Shown in pieces: positions 4,380 through 29,525 of a DNA stretch of 64,000 nucleotides. A program made the translations under genes and the position numbers. The notes beneath the pieces are model-generated. The model was not told the DNA's origin and made no database searches. It was given only the letters and a program-made list of their open reading frames with translations. Origin of the DNA: Altererythrobacter sp. TH136 (lineage in GTDB: Bacteria; Pseudomonadota; Alphaproteobacteria; Sphingomonadales; Sphingomonadaceae); NCBI RefSeq assembly GCF_007065885.1, contig NZ_CP041409.1:62001-126000 (forward strand). Reading direction: 5' to 3'. How positions within the stretch are numbered: position 1 is the stretch's first letter; each line of letters begins with the position of its first letter.

Positions 4380-4927
4380 CCGGATTGGCATCGAGGCGAC
4401 AACTGCGCGCGAGCCTGATGCGTTGGGCGCTGTTCACCGTGCCGCTGGTGCTGCTGCTCGGGTTCCTGTCCGGCCGCGCCGGCAGCAGCGCCGACAGCCC
4501 GTGGTTCCAGGCGCTCGCCAAGCCTGACATCTTCCCGCCGCCGATGTGGTTCGGGATCGTGTGGACGATCCTGTACGTCATGATGGGGCTGGCGCTGGCG
4601 ATCGTCTGCGCCGCGTGGGGCGCGCGCGGGCGGACAGCCGCGATCATCGCATTCGCGGTGCAGTTGGCGGTGAACCTCGCGTGGTCGCCGACGTTCTTCG
4701 GGATGCAGCAGATCAGCACGGCGCTGATCGTGATCGCGGTGCTCGATGTGCTGGTGATCGTCACCATCGTGCTGTTCTGGCGCGTGCGGCGAAGCGCGGC
4801 GCTGCTGCTGCTGCCGTATCTGGCCTGGATCGCCTTCGCGACCTTGCTCAATTACGAGTTCCTGCGCGCCAATCCCGAAGGCGGGTTGGGGCAGGAGAGC
4901 GGGGCGGCGCAGCGGTACGAGATCTGA
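4376..4927 (+). CDS. tspO: TspO/MBR family tryptophan-rich sensory protein
   Basis: 183 residues with five predicted hydrophobic helices, as in TspO. Family signatures are PDIFPPPMWFGIVWTILYVMMG after helix 1 and NLAWSPTFFG at helix 3, the latter being the usual N-x-x-W motif. TspO is an outer- or inner-membrane protein that binds porphyrins and, in alphaproteobacteria, modulates tetrapyrrole metabolism and photosynthesis genes. The ATG at 4376 overlaps the tlyA stop by four bases, implying translational coupling; the longer frame upstream is tlyA out of frame. The C-terminal tail (EGGLGQESGAAQRYEI) is hydrophilic. Confidence 0.88.
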   Translation: MTGLASRRQLRASLMRWALFTVPLVLLLGFLSGRAGSSADSPWFQALAKPDIFPPPMWFGIVWTILYVMMGLALAIVCAAWGARGRTAAIIAFAVQLAVNLAWSPTFFGMQQISTALIVIAVLDVLVIVTIVLFWRVRRSAALLLLPYLAWIAFATLLNYEFLRANPEGGLGQESGAAQRYEI

Positions 4928-5574: not shown

Positions 5575-6635
5575 CTCTCCCGCCGGACCCCGCCGCCGGC
5601 CACGCGCCAGATGGCGGCCTGGTCGATGATCGGGTCGAAGGGCGCGGTTTCGGTCCCGGTGAACCACACTTGCGTGCCGCTTCCCGCCAGCCGATCGAAC
5701 AGCGCCGCGCGCCGGACGGGATCGAGATGCGCGGCCACTTCATCGAGCAGCAGCACCCCCGTGCGGCCGCGCGCCGCCAGTTCGGCGTGCGCCAGCGTGA
5801 TCGCGATCAGCATCGCCTTCTGCTCGCCGGTCGAGCAGCGCTCCGCCGGTTGCCCCTTGCCGGCCATCGTGATGTCCAGATCGTCACGGTGCGGACCTTC
5901 GAGCGTCCGCCCCGCCGCCCGGTCGCGCGCGCGCGCGGCACGCCAGGCTTCGGCACTCGCGGCGCCGCCTGACCGGTAGGCGAGCTCGGGCAGCGCGAAC
6001 GGCGCGCGGGGCAGGGTGGCTAGCGCGGCGGAGAGGGCCTCCACCAGCGCGGCCCGTCCGGTTGCCAGAGCCGAGCCGGCTTCCGCCATCTGGCCCTCGA
6101 TCCCGTCGAGCCACAGCGGGTCGGGCGTCGCCTCGCCCGCCAGCAGCCGGTTGCGTTCGCGTAACGCGGCTTCAAAGCGCGCGGCGTTGCGGGCGTGACC
6201 GGCGTCGAGCGCCACCGCCAGCCGATCGAGCCACCGCCGCCGGCCCCCCGCGCTGCCGGTGAACAGCCCGTCCATCGACGGTGTGAGCCATGACAGCGCG
6301 AGCCATTCGCCCAGCGCGACCGCGCTCGCCTCCGCGCCGTTGATCCGCACCAGCCGGCGGGTGGGCCGGACCGGATCGATCAGGGTGCCAAGGCGCACTT
6401 CGTCCGTGCCCAGCGACGCGCCGACCGCAAATCCACCGTCCCCTGCGGCGGAGGCCATCTCGGTGAGAGCCGCGCGGCGCAAACCCCGTCCGGGGGCAAG
6501 CAGCGAGAGCGCTTCGAGCACGTTGGTTTTGCCGGCGCCGTTTTCGCCCACCAGCAGATTGAAGCCGCGCGCACCCTCAAGCGTGGTTTCGCGATGGTTG
6601 CGAAAGCGGGACAGGGAGATGCGGTCAAGGGCCAT
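5571..6635 (-). CDS. recF: DNA replication and repair protein RecF
   Basis: 354 residues of the SMC/RecF ATPase family, which loads RecA on gapped single-stranded DNA with RecO and RecR in the cytoplasm. The start MALDRISLSRFRNHRE is the normal RecF beginning, so I use the ATG at 6635 rather than an upstream codon. The P-loop is GENGAGKT (about residue 30), the ABC signature is CSTGEQKAML, and Walker B is TGVLLLDEVAAHLD with its acidic pair. recF is not beside dnaA/dnaN/gyrB here. recO is at 50.8 kb. The gene ends with a TAG overlapping the stop of the preceding small gene. Confidence 0.95.
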   Translation of the reverse strand: MALDRISLSRFRNHRETTLEGARGFNLLVGENGAGKTNVLEALSLLAPGRGLRRAALTEMASAAGDGGFAVGASLGTDEVRLGTLIDPVRPTRRLVRINGAEASAVALGEWLALSWLTPSMDGLFTGSAGGRRRWLDRLAVALDAGHARNAARFEAALRERNRLLAGEATPDPLWLDGIEGQMAEAGSALATGRAALVEALSAALATLPRAPFALPELAYRSGGAASAEAWRAARARDRAAGRTLEGPHRDDLDITMAGKGQPAERCSTGEQKAMLIAITLAHAELAARGRTGVLLLDEVAAHLDPVRRAALFDRLAGSGTQVWFTGTETAPFDPIIDQAAIWRVAGGGVRRES

Positions 6636-23001: not shown

Positions 23002-25959
23002 ATGTCTCTCACTCAGATCAGCGTGCGTGGCGCCCGCGAGCATAATCTCAAGGGCATCGACATCGATCTGCCGCGCGATGCGCTGATCGTTATCACCGGG
23101 TTGTCCGGCTCCGGCAAGTCGAGCCTGGCGTTCGACACGATCTATGCCGAAGGGCAGCGGCGCTATGTCGAGAGCTTGAGCGCCTACGCGCGCCAGTTCC
23201 TCGAGATGATGCAGAAGCCCGATGTCGAGCATATCGACGGTCTCAGCCCCGCGATCTCGATCGAGCAGAAGACCACGTCGCGCAACCCGCGCTCGACCGT
23301 GGCGACAGTGACCGAGATCTACGATTACATGCGCCTGCTGTGGGCGCGGGTCGGGGTGCCATATTCGCCCGCCACCGGTTTGCCGATCGAGGCGCAGACG
23401 GTGTCCAACATGGTCGACCGGGTGATGACCCTACCCGAAGGGACGCGCGCCTACTTGCTCGCGCCCGTGGTGCGCGGCCGCAAGGGAGAATACCGCAAGG
23501 AACTGCTCGAGTGGCAGAAGGCCGGCTTCACCCGCGTGCGCATCGACGGCGAGATGTACGAGATCGGCGAGGCGCCGGCGCTCGACAAGAAGTTCAAGCA
23601 CGACATCGAGGTGGTGGTCGATCGTCTCGCGGTGCGCGAGGGGATCGAGACCCGGCTGGCCGACAGCTTCGAACAGGCGCTGAAGCTGGCCGAAGGGCTG
23701 GTCTATTTCGACCTGGCGGACGGCGTGGTCCCGGGGCGCGAGGCCGAGGGCGAGGCGGGCGGCGCGATGAAGGGGGCGGGGCTCCCCGCCAACCGGATCG
23801 TGTTCTCCGAAAAGTTCGCCTGCCCGGTGTCCGGCTTCACCATCGAGGAGGTCGAGCCGCGGCTGTTCTCGTTCAACGCTCCGCAGGGCGCGTGCCCGGC
23901 GTGCGATGGCCTGGGCGAAAAGCTGCTGTTCGACCCGCAGCTGGTGGTGCCGAACGAGCACCTTAGCCTGAAGCAGGGCGCGGTGGTGCCGTGGGCCAAG
24001 TCCAACCCGCCGAGCCCGTACTACATGCAGGTGCTGAGTAGCCTGGCAAAGGAGTTCGGCTTCGACCTCACCACCCCGTGGGAGGCGCTGGGCGAGGACA
24101 ACCAGACCGTCATCCTCCACGGCACCAAGGGCAAGGCCGTGCCGCTCACCTTCAAGGACGGGCGCAAGGAATACACCGTGCGCAAGGCGTTCGAGGGGGT
24201 GATCGGCAACCTCAACCGCCGGATGCTGCAGACCGAAAGCGCGTGGATGCGCGAGGAGCTGGGCAAGTACCAGACCGCGCAGGCGTGCGAGACCTGCCTC
24301 GGCAAGCGGCTCAATGACAAGGCTCTGAGCGTCAAGATCGCCGGGACCGACATCGCCACCCCCACGCAGATGAGCGTGACGATGGCCAAGGACTGGTTCC
24401 TCGCCCTGCCGGACCAGCTGACCGACACGCAGAACCAGATCGCCCGCGCGATCCTGAAGGAGATCAACGAGCGGCTGGGCTTCCTCGACAACGTCGGGCT
24501 CGACTACCTCAACCTCGATCGCACCAGCGGCACGCTGTCGGGCGGGGAGAGCCAGCGCATCCGCTTGGCGTCCCAGATCGGCAGCGGGCTGTCGGGCGTG
24601 CTCTACGTGCTCGACGAACCCTCGATCGGCCTCCACCAGAAGGACAACGACCGCCTGCTGCTGACGTTGAAGCGGCTGCGCGATCTCGGCAACACGGTGA
24701 TCGTGGTCGAGCATGACGAGGATGCGATCCGCACCGCCGACCATGTGGTCGATCTCGGCCCCGGCGCGGGCGTCCACGGCGGCGAGATCGTCGCGCAGGG
24801 CACCCTGAAGCAGGTGCTCAAGGCCAAGAACAGCCTCACCGCCGACTACCTCACCGGCCGCCGCCAGATCGCGATCCCGGCCCGGCGCCGCCCCGGCAAC
24901 GGCCAGCACATCACCGTTCATGGCGCGCGGGCGAACAACCTGCGCAACGTCACCGCCAGCATCCCATTGGGCACGTTCACCTGCATCACCGGCGTCAGCG
25001 GTTCGGGCAAGTCGAGCTTCACCATCGACACGCTCTACGCCGCCGCCGCGCGCACGCTGAACGGCGCGCGGGTGATCGCGGGCGCGCACGACCAGGTGAC
25101 GGGGTTCGAATACTGCGACAAGGTGATCGAGATCGACCAGTCGCCGATCGGCCGCACCCCGCGCTCCAACCCGGCGACCTATACCGGCGCCTTCACCCAG
25201 ATCCGCGACTGGTTTGCAGGGTTACCCGAAAGCGCCGCGCGCGGGTACAAGGCGGGGCGGTTCAGCTTCAACGTCAAGGGCGGCCGGTGCGAGGCGTGCC
25301 AGGGCGACGGGCTGATCAAGATCGAGATGCACTTCCTGCCCGACGTCTATGTCACGTGCGAGGAATGCCACGGCAAGCGCTACAATCGCGAAACGCTTGA
25401 GGTGAAGTTCAAGGGCCTGTCCATCGCCGACGTTCTCGACATGACGATCGAGGACGCGGAGGAGTTTTTTAAGGCCGTCCCCCCGATCCGCGACAAGATG
25501 CACATGCTGAACGAAGTCGGCCTTGGCTACGTCAAGGTCGGCCAGCAGGCGACCACGCTTTCCGGAGGCGAGGCGCAGCGGGTCAAGCTCGCCAAGGAAC
25601 TCAGCCGCCGCTCCACCGGGCAGACGCTCTACATCCTCGACGAGCCGACCACCGGCCTGCACTTCGAAGACGTGCGCAAACTACTCGAAGTGCTCCAGCG
25701 CCTGGTCGACCAGGGCAACAGCGTGGTGGTGATCGAACACAACCTCGACGTGATCAAGACCGCCGACTGGGTGCTCGACCTCGGCCCCGAAGGCGGCGTG
25801 CGCGGCGGGGAGATCGTGGCGCAGGGGACGCCCGAGCAGGTCGCGGCCGAGCCGCGCAGTTATACCGGCGGGTACTTGAAGCCAATGCTGGCGAAGCAGG
25901 CGGCCTTGAAGCAGCCGGCGGCTAAGCGGAAGGCGCGGCAGAAGGTGGCGGCGGAGTAG
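23002..25959 (+). CDS. uvrA: UvrABC system protein A
   Basis: 985 residues of the excision-repair damage sensor. It has two ABC ATPase halves: Walker [10 protein letters not shown] (about residue 31) and GVSGSGKSS (about 670), and signatures [12 protein letters not shown] and [12 protein letters not shown]. Zinc-binding cysteine pairs are in [11 protein letters not shown] and [11 protein letters not shown]...CEECHGKR. UvrA2 with UvrB scans DNA for bulky lesions in the cytoplasm. A LexA box lies 11 bases upstream. uvrB is 3.6 kb away on the opposite strand, and an AT-richer two-gene insert begins right after this stop. Confidence 0.97.
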
Positions 25960-26097
25960 CGGCGCTAACAATCGAGGCGCTCTGTTGCAATGCTTCGGCT
26001 TCAACAAGGACGCTGCAAACCTCGACAACACCTAAGTGGGCTGTCAGAATTTCCGTAGTTTTCCCCGTTATCCACATGAGTCGGAAACAGTGGACTG

Positions 26098-27246
26098 ATG
26101 CAAGCAGGGTTCGCCTCAAAGCTGTATCAATGGATCGAATCGCTAAAGCGTTTGAGTTCGCACGGGAACAAGCAGAGTGAGGAAAATTCGGCCGCAATCA
26201 TGGACGTAATTGATCTAACCCGAGATTCGGACGAGAGATATGAGTTTCATCTCCCCGTCGACCACGAGCGGACGACCATGGAAGAGGAGTTCTTGGAGGA
26301 TCTCTCTCGAACGTCTGCATTCCGCAGGCTTTCTGACATTCGATTTCTTGGCGCGCTTGACTATTATCTTATATCATCGCCAAATCAACACCCTCAGAAT
26401 TCGCGATATACTCGAGCCCAGCATAGTTGGGGCGTCGCCCTGTTGGCTCAAAGATATTTGCAGGGTAAATCCTTTACCCCGCACGACCGGATGGTTTGCA
26501 TCGCTGCCGCGATGTTACACGACATAGGTCACTCAGCTTTCTCTCACACCCTCGAGCCAGCCTTCGTCGAGCTCTTCGGAATTAATCATCATGCAGTTTC
26601 CGAGGAAATAATTCGCGGTTCAGATCGCCAATTCGAGGACGTGCGCGCTACTTTAACGACATACGGCCTCGACCCCGAGGAAGTCATAGCTGTCCTCAAC
26701 GGAGATGATGAAAAATACGACCGGTATTTCTCTGGCCCTATAAACTTCGACACCATAGAAGGTATACTGCGCTCGAGGCAATATGTAAAAATGGAAACCC
26801 TCGGGCTGAGTCCGTGGAGGGTGCTCAAAGCGTCGAAAGACAGAAGTGCCAGAGCCGACCAAGAAACTGTTGATAGTTTCTGGAATTTGAAGGGAGAGAT
26901 TTATAATCTTGTAATTAGGTCCTCCTTCGGTGCCTTCCTTGATCAGCTATTTCTAGAGATATTTAAGAGAGAGCAGGACCGAATTTCGCCGAATGACTTC
27001 TACCTTTCGGAAGCGCAGATGTTCAAGAAATTTCCTGGGTTGCGGAAGGCATTTGATCCGTCTTTCATTGAGCAGTTTAGCCGAGAAGCCTTCTCGGGTT
27101 ATCTCTCCGTTACGGTCCGCCATTTTCACGTAGATCAGTCGCAGGACTTTTTTACCCGTTGCGACGCCCTCCGGTATAAGCATACAAAGGAGCTTCGCAA
27201 CGTCCAGATCCCCCGCTTTAGTGGGGGTGATTTGGGCGAGGCCTAG
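26098..27246 (+). CDS. HD-domain phosphohydrolase, dNTPase-like (island gene 1)
   Basis: Up to 382 residues. Metal-binding residues of the HD fold are visible: H109 in RAQHSWGVA, H141-D142 in AAMLHDIGHSAFSHTLEP, and a later aspartate D218 in NFDTIEGILR. The RxxHS...LLHDIGHxxFSHTLE spacing resembles dNTP triphosphohydrolases and SAMHD1 more than the c-di-GMP or RelA types. The start could be ATG 26098 or ATG 26200 (MDVIDLTRD); neither has a strong ribosome site. DNA here is AT-richer and uses ATA, AGA and AGG codons rare in the neighbours. It is followed 8 bases later by a nucleotidyltransferase gene, so the two likely act together. Confidence 0.8.
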   Translation: MQAGFASKLYQWIESLKRLSSHGNKQSEENSAAIMDVIDLTRDSDERYEFHLPVDHERTTMEEEFLEDLSRTSAFRRLSDIRFLGALDYYLISSPNQHPQNSRYTRAQHSWGVALLAQRYLQGKSFTPHDRMVCIAAAMLHDIGHSAFSHTLEPAFVELFGINHHAVSEEIIRGSDRQFEDVRATLTTYGLDPEEVIAVLNGDDEKYDRYFSGPINFDTIEGILRSRQYVKMETLGLSPWRVLKASKDRSARADQETVDSFWNLKGEIYNLVIRSSFGAFLDQLFLEIFKREQDRISPNDFYLSEAQMFKKFPGLRKAFDPSFIEQFSREAFSGYLSVTVRHFHVDQSQDFFTRCDALRYKHTKELRNVQIPRFSGGDLGEA

Positions 27247-27254
27247 GGGGATAC

Positions 27255-28187
27255 ATGAACTCGATAGAACGGGCGCGCATCTTTTCCGAAGAGAAGATAC
27301 AGGAACTACGAGCTAAGCTGGCAGCGGAGATCGGACCTGGGGCTAACGTGGTCACCTGCGGATCATTCGCTCGCCGCGACGCTTCGCGCGCCTCTGATCT
27401 AGATTACTTCTGCGTATTTCCGGGCGAGGAAAAAGGTCGGACGAGTAACCCGGCAATCCGTGACATTGTGATGGATGTCATTGGAAAAGCGCCCTCAGAG
27501 GGCGGCGCCTTCGCGAAGGACGTCACCGAACGTCAACTCCTGACGAACATTGGGGGATGGGATGACGATAATGAAAACATTACTCGGCGCATCTTATATT
27601 TGCTCGAAGGCGAATACCTTACTGATCGTAAGGAGTTTGAGGCGATTCGTGCAAACCTAATTGAGCAGTATGTGGGAAACACGCCAAACGATCATCAGAT
27701 CGCATTTTATTTGTTGAACGACATAGTGCGATATTGGAGAACAATGGCAGTAGACTACGCTCATAAGACCTCCCAACTTGGCCCTAGTAAACCGTGGGGA
27801 GTGCGAAACCTTAAACTGGTTTATTCGCGCAAGCTGATCTATGCGAGTGGTATCTTCTCCGTTGCCCTTACCGCGGATCGATCTGAAGTACAGAAGTGCG
27901 AAATCCTCCAGACCCTGTTTGCTATGACGCCAATTGAACGGCTTCAATATGTCTGTGGTATAACCGCAACGACGCGTCTATTCGAAATCTATGCATTCTT
28001 TTTGGACAAGATTGAAGACAAGAATTTCCGATCACGGATTGACTCGTTGAAACCCGAGGACAAGCACACTGACGAGGAATTTAGGTCTCTTAAGAATGAG
28101 GGGCACTATTTCTCGCGGGAACTGATGGCTCTTTTACAGAGTACATTTCACGCATCGCATCCAATTCACATGTCACTCATTTTCTAA
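27255..28187 (+). CDS. nucleotidyltransferase-domain protein (island gene 2)
   Basis: 310 residues. The N-terminal polymerase-beta nucleotidyltransferase motif is CGSFARRDASRASDLDYF: G36-S37, then D48 and D50, ten residues apart as in this superfamily. The middle region (LNDIVRYWRTMAVDYAHKT...KPWGVRNLKLVYSRKLIYASG) is helical and resembles the substrate-binding part found after DUF294/GlnD-type transferase domains. It could add an NMP to a protein or a nucleotide; the target is unknown. Base composition matches gene 1 and differs from the flanks. The spacing of 8 bases after the HD gene indicates one operon; GlnD itself joins the same two domain types in one protein. Confidence 0.78.
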   Translation: MNSIERARIFSEEKIQELRAKLAAEIGPGANVVTCGSFARRDASRASDLDYFCVFPGEEKGRTSNPAIRDIVMDVIGKAPSEGGAFAKDVTERQLLTNIGGWDDDNENITRRILYLLEGEYLTDRKEFEAIRANLIEQYVGNTPNDHQIAFYLLNDIVRYWRTMAVDYAHKTSQLGPSKPWGVRNLKLVYSRKLIYASGIFSVALTADRSEVQKCEILQTLFAMTPIERLQYVCGITATTRLFEIYAFFLDKIEDKNFRSRIDSLKPEDKHTDEEFRSLKNEGHYFSRELMALLQSTFHASHPIHMSLIF

Positions 28188-28277
28188 GGCGCCAGTATTT
28201 TCTCCGATGGTCGCCGCCGCACAGTCCGCTCTGCCTGGAGCGCGGGTTAGGGGAGAGACGGGCTTCGACCTGCCCAA

Positions 28278-28559
28278 TCAGCCCTCCTGCCCATCACCCT
28301 CCCGATTCCCCACAAACCCCCGCATCCCCGCGAACGCCGGCAGCCAGTCCTCCCGCCGCACGGTCCAGCTTTCGTAGGTCGGGGTGAAGCGGCTCGGTTC
28401 GTCGAGGGTGCCGAGGTGGACTTCGATCTCTTCGTCCCAGCGGGCGAAGACCGATCCGCCGCAGGTGGGGCAGAAGTGGCGGTTCTTCCAGTGGCGGGGC
28501 TCGCCGCTCGCCTCGATCCGCACCGCGCCGCATGGGCATCCGCCGGTCACCTGGTCCAT
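28278..28559 (-). CDS. shortened GFA-family (glutathione-dependent formaldehyde-activating-like) protein
   Basis: 93 residues. The N-terminal GFA motif GGCPCGAVRIEASGEPRH runs straight into the C-terminal part NRHFCPTCGGSVFARWDEE...FTPTYESWTVRREDWLP. Normal GFA proteins are about 130 residues, with a CHCxxC zinc segment of some 40-50 residues between these parts; it is absent here with the frame kept. The structural zinc site would lack half its ligands, so this is probably a decayed gene, although a minimal functional variant is possible. It is convergent with the nucleotidyltransferase gene. The ATG at 28559 starts MDQVTGG. Confidence 0.7.
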   Translation of the reverse strand: MDQVTGGCPCGAVRIEASGEPRHWKNRHFCPTCGGSVFARWDEEIEVHLGTLDEPSRFTPTYESWTVRREDWLPAFAGMRGFVGNREGDGQEG

Positions 28560-28685
28560 CCGCTCTCCTCCTTGCGCCGGGCGCCTCGCGCAAACCGCTG
28601 TCCTACAGCCCCCCGCATGCCATAGATGGTCCGATTCGCATGGCCTTTCGCGTGAAGGCGCCTCAACCTTGAAGGATGCGGATCG

Positions 28686-29525
28686 ATGACCCCTGCCTCT
28701 CTGCCCGCCGTGATCGACCAGCCGGGCGCCGCGCCGCCGCCGGTCCAGCGGAGCTTCCCCCGGCCGCTGCAGACCGCCTTCCTTGCGGCGCTGGCGGACA
28801 GCGGCAGCGTGCGCGCGGCGGCGCGCGGGGTGGGGGTGTGCTATCGCACCGCCTATCGCGCGCGGCGCAGCGATCCTGCGTTCCGGCGGTTGTGGGATGG
28901 CGCGCTGCTCGCCGCGCGGCCGCAGGCGGAAGAGGTGCTCGCCACCCGCGCGATCGACGGGGTGGAGGAAGAGGTGTGGTACCACGGCGAGGTTGTCGCC
29001 ACCCGCCGCCGCTATGACGCGCGGCTGCTGCTCGCGCACCTCGGCCGGCTCGACAAGCTGGCGGACGATGCCGATGCGGCGGCCCTGGCAGGCGACTTCG
29101 ACGACGCGCTGGACCGCTTCGCCAGCGGCGAACCGCCGGCGCGCGGGGAGGGGGCAGGTTCCTCGCCAGAACAGTGTGACACGTGTGACACTTCGGGCGA
29201 CGCGGAGGCCGCTCCGCCCCCGGCTCCGCCCGCCGCGCCGCCGTCCGGCCCGGAGCGGCAATGGTGCGAGCATACCGGCACGATGCTGCCGCGGGTCGAT
29301 CGCCTGCTCAACGCGATGGACGCCGCCCGTCCCGCCGATGCGCGCCTGCCTGGCGAGATCTACGGCTATCCCTCGGGCGCGGTGGAGGCCGAGCAGATGG
29401 CCGCGTTCGAGGCGCAGGTGGCGCGGTGGTGGCTGGTGGTCCCCCCGGGCGAGGACGACGACCCGGCGGAGTGGACCTTCACCGAGGATCTGACCCCCTG
29501 GGAGCCGCTGGCCGGGGCCGGGTGA
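28686..29525 (+). CDS. hypothetical protein with terminase-small-subunit-like HTH
   Basis: 279 residues. Residues about 22-65 (FPRPLQTAFLAALADSGSVRAAARGVGVCYRTAYRARRSDPAFR) resemble the helix-turn-helix of terminase small subunits or Mu-like regulators. A variable Ala/Pro-rich middle (APPPAPPAAPPSGP) precedes a C-terminal part ending DDDPAEWTFTEDLTPWEPLAG. No phage gene lies nearby, so it is not part of a prophage here. In the middle a tandem 9-base repeat codes for CDTCDT. Function is unknown; a DNA-binding role is inference. It converges with uvrB. Confidence 0.65.
   Translation: MTPASLPAVIDQPGAAPPPVQRSFPRPLQTAFLAALADSGSVRAAARGVGVCYRTAYRARRSDPAFRRLWDGALLAARPQAEEVLATRAIDGVEEEVWYHGEVVATRRRYDARLLLAHLGRLDKLADDADAAALAGDFDDALDRFASGEPPARGEGAGSSPEQCDTCDTSGDAEAAPPPAPPAAPPSGPERQWCEHTGTMLPRVDRLLNAMDAARPADARLPGEIYGYPSGAVEAEQMAAFEAQVARWWLVVPPGEDDDPAEWTFTEDLTPWEPLAGAG
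29174..29191. repeat. tandem 9-base repeat inside the HTH gene
   Basis: GTGTGACAC occurs twice in direct tandem, encoding Cys-Asp-Thr twice in the linker of the HTH protein. In-frame, so harmless to the reading frame. Confidence 0.7.

Follow-up and report, generated by a model that had tools for sequence, protein, structure and literature searches.

What kinds of proteins can make up a pair in which a nucleotidyltransferase holds back a nucleotide-destroying enzyme? Clover showed that such an enzyme can be restrained by a partner nucleotidyltransferase: CloA is described as a Dgt-type dGTPase that is activated by dTTP and restrained by p3diT, the product of CloB, and the total length of the system is given as about 2.2 kb (PMC12265719). 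In MntA-HepT, the toxin is modified by the GSx10DxD enzyme with which it is paired (PMC7641770). The 64,000-nucleotide stretch of Altererythrobacter sp. TH136 analyzed here (NZ_CP041409.1, positions 62,001 to 126,000; hereafter the window) contains two + strand genes separated by 8 bases, one encoding a 382-aa HD-domain phosphohydrolase with a SAMHD1-like predicted fold (26098..27246) and the other a 310-aa Pol-beta-type nucleotidyltransferase (NTase; 27255..28187). With a probability of roughly one half, we read them as a mobile anti-phage module in which the hydrolase would be the effector and the NTase its regulator, analogous to Clover, with proteins from different families.

The gene pair is conserved. 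An original prediction, made from the letters of the window alone, had drawn the two open reading frames (ORFs) at these positions and treated them as a unit, and both the positions and the co-occurrence stood up. Among named genome contigs there were 156 relatives of the NTase, the best 80 of which were examined, and viral contigs gave one; with the loci found earlier in Tistrella (L004) and on an E. coli plasmid (L008), there are 83 rows, or 82 loci, L004 being the same as L073. In 62 of these 83 rows the NTase gene directly follows the HD gene. A script scored 59 rows as adjacent in this order, with gaps of -124 to +40 nt, 14 as separated, nine as having no HD gene in the DNA examined and one (L035) as having it on the opposite strand; three of the separated rows were counted as adjacent, L013 and L040 because of over-long overlapping ORF calls, and L008 because the plasmid is circular and its HD gene crosses the start of the record. 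Besides L035 there are 20 non-adjacent rows, all from Thalassospira except for one Rhodospirillales bin. For five of the nine rows scored as lacking the HD gene the genome was searched, and in every one the gene lies 5.9-8.1 kb upstream of the NTase gene, on its strand. The stretch between the two genes in Thalassospira, where it was read, consists of ordinary genes (a TRAP transporter, for example) with host-like G+C. In L181-L183 and the Thalassospira loci among L037-L064, HD and NTase genes occupy one chromosomal place, often with variable ordinary genes between them. Divergence of the HD proteins tracks that of the NTases (Spearman 0.639 over 60 pairs, a value reached by 0 of 2000 permutations), host descent being uncontrolled in this comparison. 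A more distant NTase, L007, comes from a genome (G128) with no good HD match, the best having an E of 4.5e-4.

The two genes are also compositionally foreign. They had been called AT-richer than their flanks from two lines counted by hand, and those counts were exact (25/60 G+C at 26341-26400 and 28/60 at 27601-27660); over their full lengths, G+C is 0.497 in the HD gene and 0.489 in the NTase gene, compared with 0.665 in uvrA and 0.666 in the window, and G+C at third codon positions is 0.55 and 0.54, compared with 0.92 in uvrA. The 2.09-kb stretch of lowest G+C in the window starts at 26001 (0.497; mean 0.665, standard deviation 0.034). The supposed abundance of ATA, AGA and AGG codons is strong for the HD gene (20.9, 13.1 and 10.5 per 1000 codons) and weaker for the NTase gene (12.9, 3.2 and 3.2), with none in uvrA. 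The HD gene may alternatively start at an in-frame ATG at 26200, and in the ORF list no further gene adjoins the NTase gene on the + strand.

The two genes are probably a phage-defence pair, because several related species have anti-virus systems at the same place. The left flank of this slot, outside the module, is uvrA (23002..25959, + strand), the 3' part of which was matched in 30 of the 30 genomes searched, its own included. The HD protein is absent from all ten other genomes of the genus, and tblastn found neither HD nor NTase in the ten congener slot regions, which are the parts of those genomes that the NTase search covered. About 8 kb from uvrA onward was read in each of the ten, eight of these regions were scanned with PADLOC and Pfam, and other inserts were found in place of the pair, in most congeners with a G+C of 0.38-0.51 between the flanks. 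Four slots contain an intact-looking defence gene of the reverse transcriptase (RT) type, namely retron RT-Toprim I-C in L175 (3.4e-156), retron RT-Protease XI in L176 (1.3e-141), a UG17 RT in L178 (3.1e-133) with its SLATT partner (8.2e-53), and DRT2 in L180 (4e-131), and a fifth, L171, contains a remnant, with fragments of a DRT8 reverse transcriptase and its PD-(D/E)xK partner at 5689-6625. A low-GC NACHT protein in L177 (1179-3152; Pfam 8.6e-13, no PADLOC match) and a 435-aa ORF without a family match in L179 (5154-6458) are possible further defence candidates. The L172 slot encodes an ATPase-like protein whose match to mad8 is weak (5.8e-7); downstream of uvrA in this congener, the 3' end of that gene is present once more (1970-2202 of the region oriented from uvrA), 82% identical to 25666-25898, and the slot may be entered by recombination at uvrA. 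Of the other two regions, L173 has no ORF of 100 aa from uvrA to the flank and L174 is rearranged. The two genes of the window were apparently acquired; their presence at this locus in all relatives with the same composition, which would have told against the original prediction, was not observed.

To the right of the pair is a gene remnant (28278..28593, - strand), which we take from its motif to be of GFA type; it lacks a middle part present in the L173 ORF, and its description as decayed was apt. A part of this flank, 28298-28509, is 96% identical in L171 and similar in L173 and L175. Beyond it lies an ORF without a Pfam match (28686..29525, + strand), which, read from 28754, recurs downstream of the slot: its 28754-29190 part was matched in eight of the ten congener regions, L174 and L180 being the two without it. 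In Sphingomonas soli (L012), the pair most closely related to that of the window likewise follows uvrA directly, the uvrA match ending at 4740 and the HD gene starting at 4823 or 4847; at no other of the 81 loci was uvrA found in the DNA examined around the pair. A comparison of 25861-26110 with 28181-28420 found no common word of 8-15 bases that would mark insertion repeats, and there is no mention of uvrA among the literature matches listed for the slot.

Might the pair instead be metabolic, without a role in defence? In many Thalassospira, copies of host composition stand at one place, which would suit such a role. Homologues do not lie apart in most genomes, this genus, in which the two genes are apart, being a partial exception. 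Against a metabolic role stands, besides the slot shared with RT-type defence systems, a patchy distribution: of the 385 genomes sampled for the class, 6 have NTase relatives, the genome of the window among them. G+C of the pair falls below that of the flanks in 64 of the 66 loci scored, with a difference greater than 0.05 in 39, and the pair is carried by a plasmid and a virus. The plasmid is the 4.5-kb E. coli pISHS7_5 (L008:1-4499), whose whole annotation comprises the HD gene, the NTase gene and a Rop-family gene; by megablast similarity, 1 of 5426 E. coli genomes has the pair, the one being that plasmid itself. The viral contig (L092:1614-7428) contains HD, NTase and histidine phosphatase genes at 31-36% G+C, and the Zot-family and C5-methylase-like genes that accompany them suggest a filamentous-phage-like element. 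A purely metabolic pair is in our view improbable. Phage records gave no NTase match with either the window or the E. coli protein as query. In the flanks of the loci, 141 of 208 candidate ORFs were scanned, and the PADLOC matches at 1e-15 (25 of 105 families listed) include type I specificity subunits (2), MADS (2) and a Pycsar cyclase (1), which, with no control set, is no evidence of enrichment.

The likely effector of the proposed anti-phage module is the HD protein, predicted to be a metal-dependent phosphohydrolase of the SAMHD1 fold with an intact catalytic centre. It matches Pfam HD (1.1e-10), and a structure search with its predicted model, in which residues 1-60 are of low confidence, pointed to SAMHD1. 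An alignment of the window HD with 60 of 62 prepared references (A3; L084 and L004 omitted), used as a profile, matched 43 solved sequences at E<=0.01, with 2o6i and SAMHD1s at the top; 2o6i is the E. faecalis HD phosphohydrolase EF1143, of the COG1078 type. NCBIfam and PHROGs yielded weak matches alone for the two window proteins, below cut-offs or with E above 0.003, and PADLOC a weak dGTPase match alone for the HD protein (4.2e-4), which is not a clear match to a known housekeeping enzyme. A housekeeping dGTPase was rejected as an identity for it, the window genome having a separate dGTPase-family match at E 1.9e-99.

For residue counts, the paired set comprised 62 HD proteins, the 61 of A3 and the E. 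coli one, 19 near-identical Thalassospira loci having been removed before this alignment and the NTase alignment (A4) were built. Stand-alone controls were collected with a Listeria query, which had matches in 56 of 249 phylum-sample genomes; of 30 loci returned, 26 gave usable ORFs, taken by pattern, and three Bacillota proteins bring the stand-alone set to 29. Coming from a canonical query, these controls lean towards canonical residues. The HD residues named in the original prediction were correct: H109 (26422..26424) and D218 (26749..26751), at metal-ligand positions, and H141-D142 of the HD motif (26518..26523) are present in 62/62 paired and 26/26 stand-alone proteins, and the HE dyad, H150..E153 (26545..26556), in 62/62 paired proteins, with stand-alone values of 26/26 for H and 23/26 for E. 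These six residues are invariant across the 61 sequences of A3, and all 62 paired proteins also keep R106 and H145.

The substrate pocket is another matter. A review of SAMHD1 (PMC7045340) describes how Gln149 and Asp319 bind the 3'-OH, how Lys312 contacts the triphosphate, and how Tyr315, which helps to shape the pocket that holds base and sugar, blocks functionalisation at one 3' position. The place of Gln149 is F83 in the window (26344..26346), F in 62/62 paired proteins and Q in 29/29 stand-alone ones; those of Lys312, Tyr315 and Asp319 are T219, G222 and S226 (26752..26775). Position 219 is T in all 62 paired proteins and R in all 29 stand-alone ones, position 222 is G in 59 and A in 3 of the paired and Y in 29/29 stand-alone, and position 226 is S (34), C (14), T (11), F (2) or A (1) in the paired and D in 29/29 stand-alone. 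Accordingly, the motif hDxD[RK]xxYxxxD is found in 0/62 paired proteins and in 25/26 stand-alone ones; residues were matched to SAMHD1 by alignment and by the spacing of 311, 312, 315 and 319 (0, +1, +4, +8) rather than by coordinates. The pocket thus appears, from these alignments, to be rebuilt on the 3' sugar side and at one triphosphate contact and to be open where SAMHD1 excludes 3' substituents, and for this reason the substrate is probably not a plain deoxynucleoside triphosphate (dNTP). The label "dNTPase-type" consequently survives for the metal and catalytic residues and not for the 3' side or the triphosphate contact; these being replaced in 62/62, the dNTP depletion first imagined is not readable from the sequence. 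What the replacements do offer is a precise and cheap prediction, that this HD protein is not a plain dNTPase. The four-residue replacement marks the paired family by sequence but is not exclusive to it, because an unpaired plasmid homologue also lacks all four: the Rhizobium etli HD protein L187, left out of the stand-alone counts, has M, N, N and L at these places. It lies among hypothetical genes (L187:2447-3733), with no NTase beside it by tblastn. Tyr360, Tyr in 62/62 paired proteins and mostly Leu or Met in stand-alone ones, was considered as a nucleotide acceptor and dropped, the C-terminal alignment between the groups being poor.

Is the pair, then, a Clover system? The reference for Clover was a Phaeobacter plasmid pair (L128), in place of the paper's Salmonella or C. 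difficile CloB queries. It is among three loci found via the printed CloA fragment, and has a dGTPase gene for 480 aa with an NTase-like ORF of 259 aa after it. Up to H69 its residues carry the paper's CloA numbers (R29, R34, D37, R38, F41, R46, R47, T52, Q53, V54, D61 and H69), with A instead of the paper's T at 25 and with later residues shifted; we infer from this sequence agreement that L128 is Clover. Aligned by hhalign, the HD family and the Phaeobacter dGTPase share 93 HD-core columns at a probability of 80%, and the NTase scores 1.7% against the CloB-like alignment, which consists of Phaeobacter CloB and one relative. At the places of CloA Arg29, Arg34 and Arg38, which bind p3diT, the window has T, E and D in a low-identity alignment; the commonest residues across the family are L/A/D, P/S/D and E/A/D, and Arg occurs at the second place in 5 of 62 proteins and at the third in 4. 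Membership of Clover was rejected on both proteins. The octameric "DNTP triphosphohydrolase" chains 9p8s-9p8v, taken to be CloA, are not among the 43 A3-profile matches; CloA chains are also missing from the best 50 rows of the HD structure search, an absence that carries no weight. CloB-like proteins occur in 3 of 398 genomes. The PADLOC dGTPase family was sought in 299 genomes, and at the 30 loci returned no NTase was seen by pattern or by inspection of neighbouring ORFs, which were not family-scanned; five plasmid dGTPase loci have no annotated nucleotidyltransferase neighbour. A Clover-like mechanism could nevertheless operate, in which the HD enzyme would hydrolyse (d)NTPs once a phage-altered pool activates it and the NTase would make a diffusible inhibitor (compare p3diT of CloB and the oligodeoxyadenylate of HalB). 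The replacement of the SAMHD1 substrate-recognition residues in all paired HD proteins, the NTase unrelated to CloB at profile level, the missing p3diT arginines and the lack of any invariant acid from D50 to D104 in the 61 NTases (the best position, 94, is E/D in 40/61) leave it doubtful.

The NTase, for its part, matches Pfam NTP_transf_2 (3.8e-5) and, far more strongly, the PADLOC candidate PDC-M70A (4.5e-52), with an hhalign probability of 100% against the PDC-M70A relative L011. Its active-site motif, G36-S37-x10-D48-x-D50 (27360..27404, + strand), had been recognized correctly from the letters: in A4, the window and 60 of 63 references (L032, L084 and L004 omitted), D48 and D50 are present in 61/61 sequences and G36 and S37 in 60/61. 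A DUF294-like region, also proposed, was recovered in the homologue L058 (4.1e-5) and not in the window protein. A structure search with the predicted model returned folds like those of GlnE and DrrA, at 9-12% identity.

How might the two proteins work together? By analogy with Clover (PMC12265719) and MntA-HepT (PMC7641770), it is plausible that a nucleotide-adding partner could switch the HD enzyme. The NTase is the likely restraint: it most likely nucleotidylates the HD protein, or else produces a small nucleotide to which the HD protein binds, and this would keep the HD protein off until infection. The GlnE-like predicted fold tips us towards covalent control. In its most specific form the proposal is tentative, with odds well short of even: an undescribed system in which a SAMHD1-fold enzyme with an opened 3'-side pocket would act on a 3'-extended nucleotide or a nucleotidylated protein and not on dNTPs, the GlnE-like NTase would modify the hydrolase, and a histidine phosphatase would be a third component in some loci.

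GlnD unites an NTase and an HD domain in one protein, and a GlnD-like writer and eraser split over two genes would have a third protein nucleotidylated by the NTase, with the HD protein taking the nucleotide off again. A predicted NTase fold resembling the protein-modifying GlnE and DrrA, and an HD active site altered at the 3' side and one triphosphate contact, would suit such an arrangement; the HD fold is of the SAMHD1 type, and most loci have no third gene in view, which makes it unlikely. A candidate third gene is seen in 17 of 80 scorable loci (L019 not being scorable), where a histidine-phosphatase ORF starts -57 to +27 nt from the NTase end; all seven of those scanned match Pfam His_Phos_1, and an eighteenth pattern match, L091, was dropped as a wrong-frame ORF. 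At these loci the NTase is 33-37% identical to that of the window, and about equally many loci at that distance lack the phosphatase, which is found neither at the window nor among its closer relatives. A PDC-M70A-kind NTase followed by a histidine phosphatase also occurs on a Rhizobium plasmid, within a glycosyltransferase/MFS gene cluster (L010:5938-7633), with no HD gene annotated near it. Signal turnover, with the NTase making a nucleotide signal with a 3' extension, the HD protein destroying it and the real effector encoded elsewhere, would account for the replacement of every equivalent of Tyr315, which blocks the 3' position, and of Gln149 and Asp319, which bind the 3'-OH (PMC7045340). 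Most two-gene loci have no third gene directly downstream, and the annotation of the 4.5-kb plasmid adds a Rop gene alone; we hold this, like a metabolic role, to be improbable.

The 2023 PADLOC library recognizes the NTase alone, and through a different pairing. PDC-M70 consists of PDC-M70A and PDC-M70B, and PDC-M70B adjoins the rhizobial NTase relatives L009 and L011; the window NTase is a clear PDC-M70A relative, but its partner is an HD protein upstream, which has no PDC-M70B match in PADLOC, instead of PDC-M70B downstream. No paper naming PDC-M70 was found, and among the literature matches listed for HD/SAMHD1, dGTPase, AMPylation and histidine phosphatase with nucleotidyltransferase, no title or abstract start describes the pair. 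With the MntA-HepT (HEPN/MNT) toxin-antitoxin system the window shares the pairing of a GSx10DxD nucleotidyltransferase with an enzyme that may be harmful, although the partner in the window matches Pfam HD and not HEPN and the NTase model has an extra helical domain. Compared with SAMHD1-type dNTPases and 2o6i, the fold and the metal and catalytic residues are alike, whereas the four substrate contacts have become Phe, Thr, Gly and Ser/Cys/Thr and the enzyme is paired with an NTase. If the module is what we propose, its SAMHD1-like effector would tie a bacterial system to the family of a human restriction factor, and a second pair with Clover's layout but unlike protein families would point to more than one origin of this control logic. 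Judged by sequence, the pair resembles Clover in layout but differs in both proteins: each has two adjacent genes, of similar total length, which encode a Pol-beta NTase and a hydrolase of the HD superfamily that carries both the HD motif and the HE dyad, but CloA is of the Dgt type and about 473 aa long, and in the CloB-like reference a GGxxRD..DxD motif with a later Asp stands in place of GSx10DxD on a GlnE-like predicted fold.
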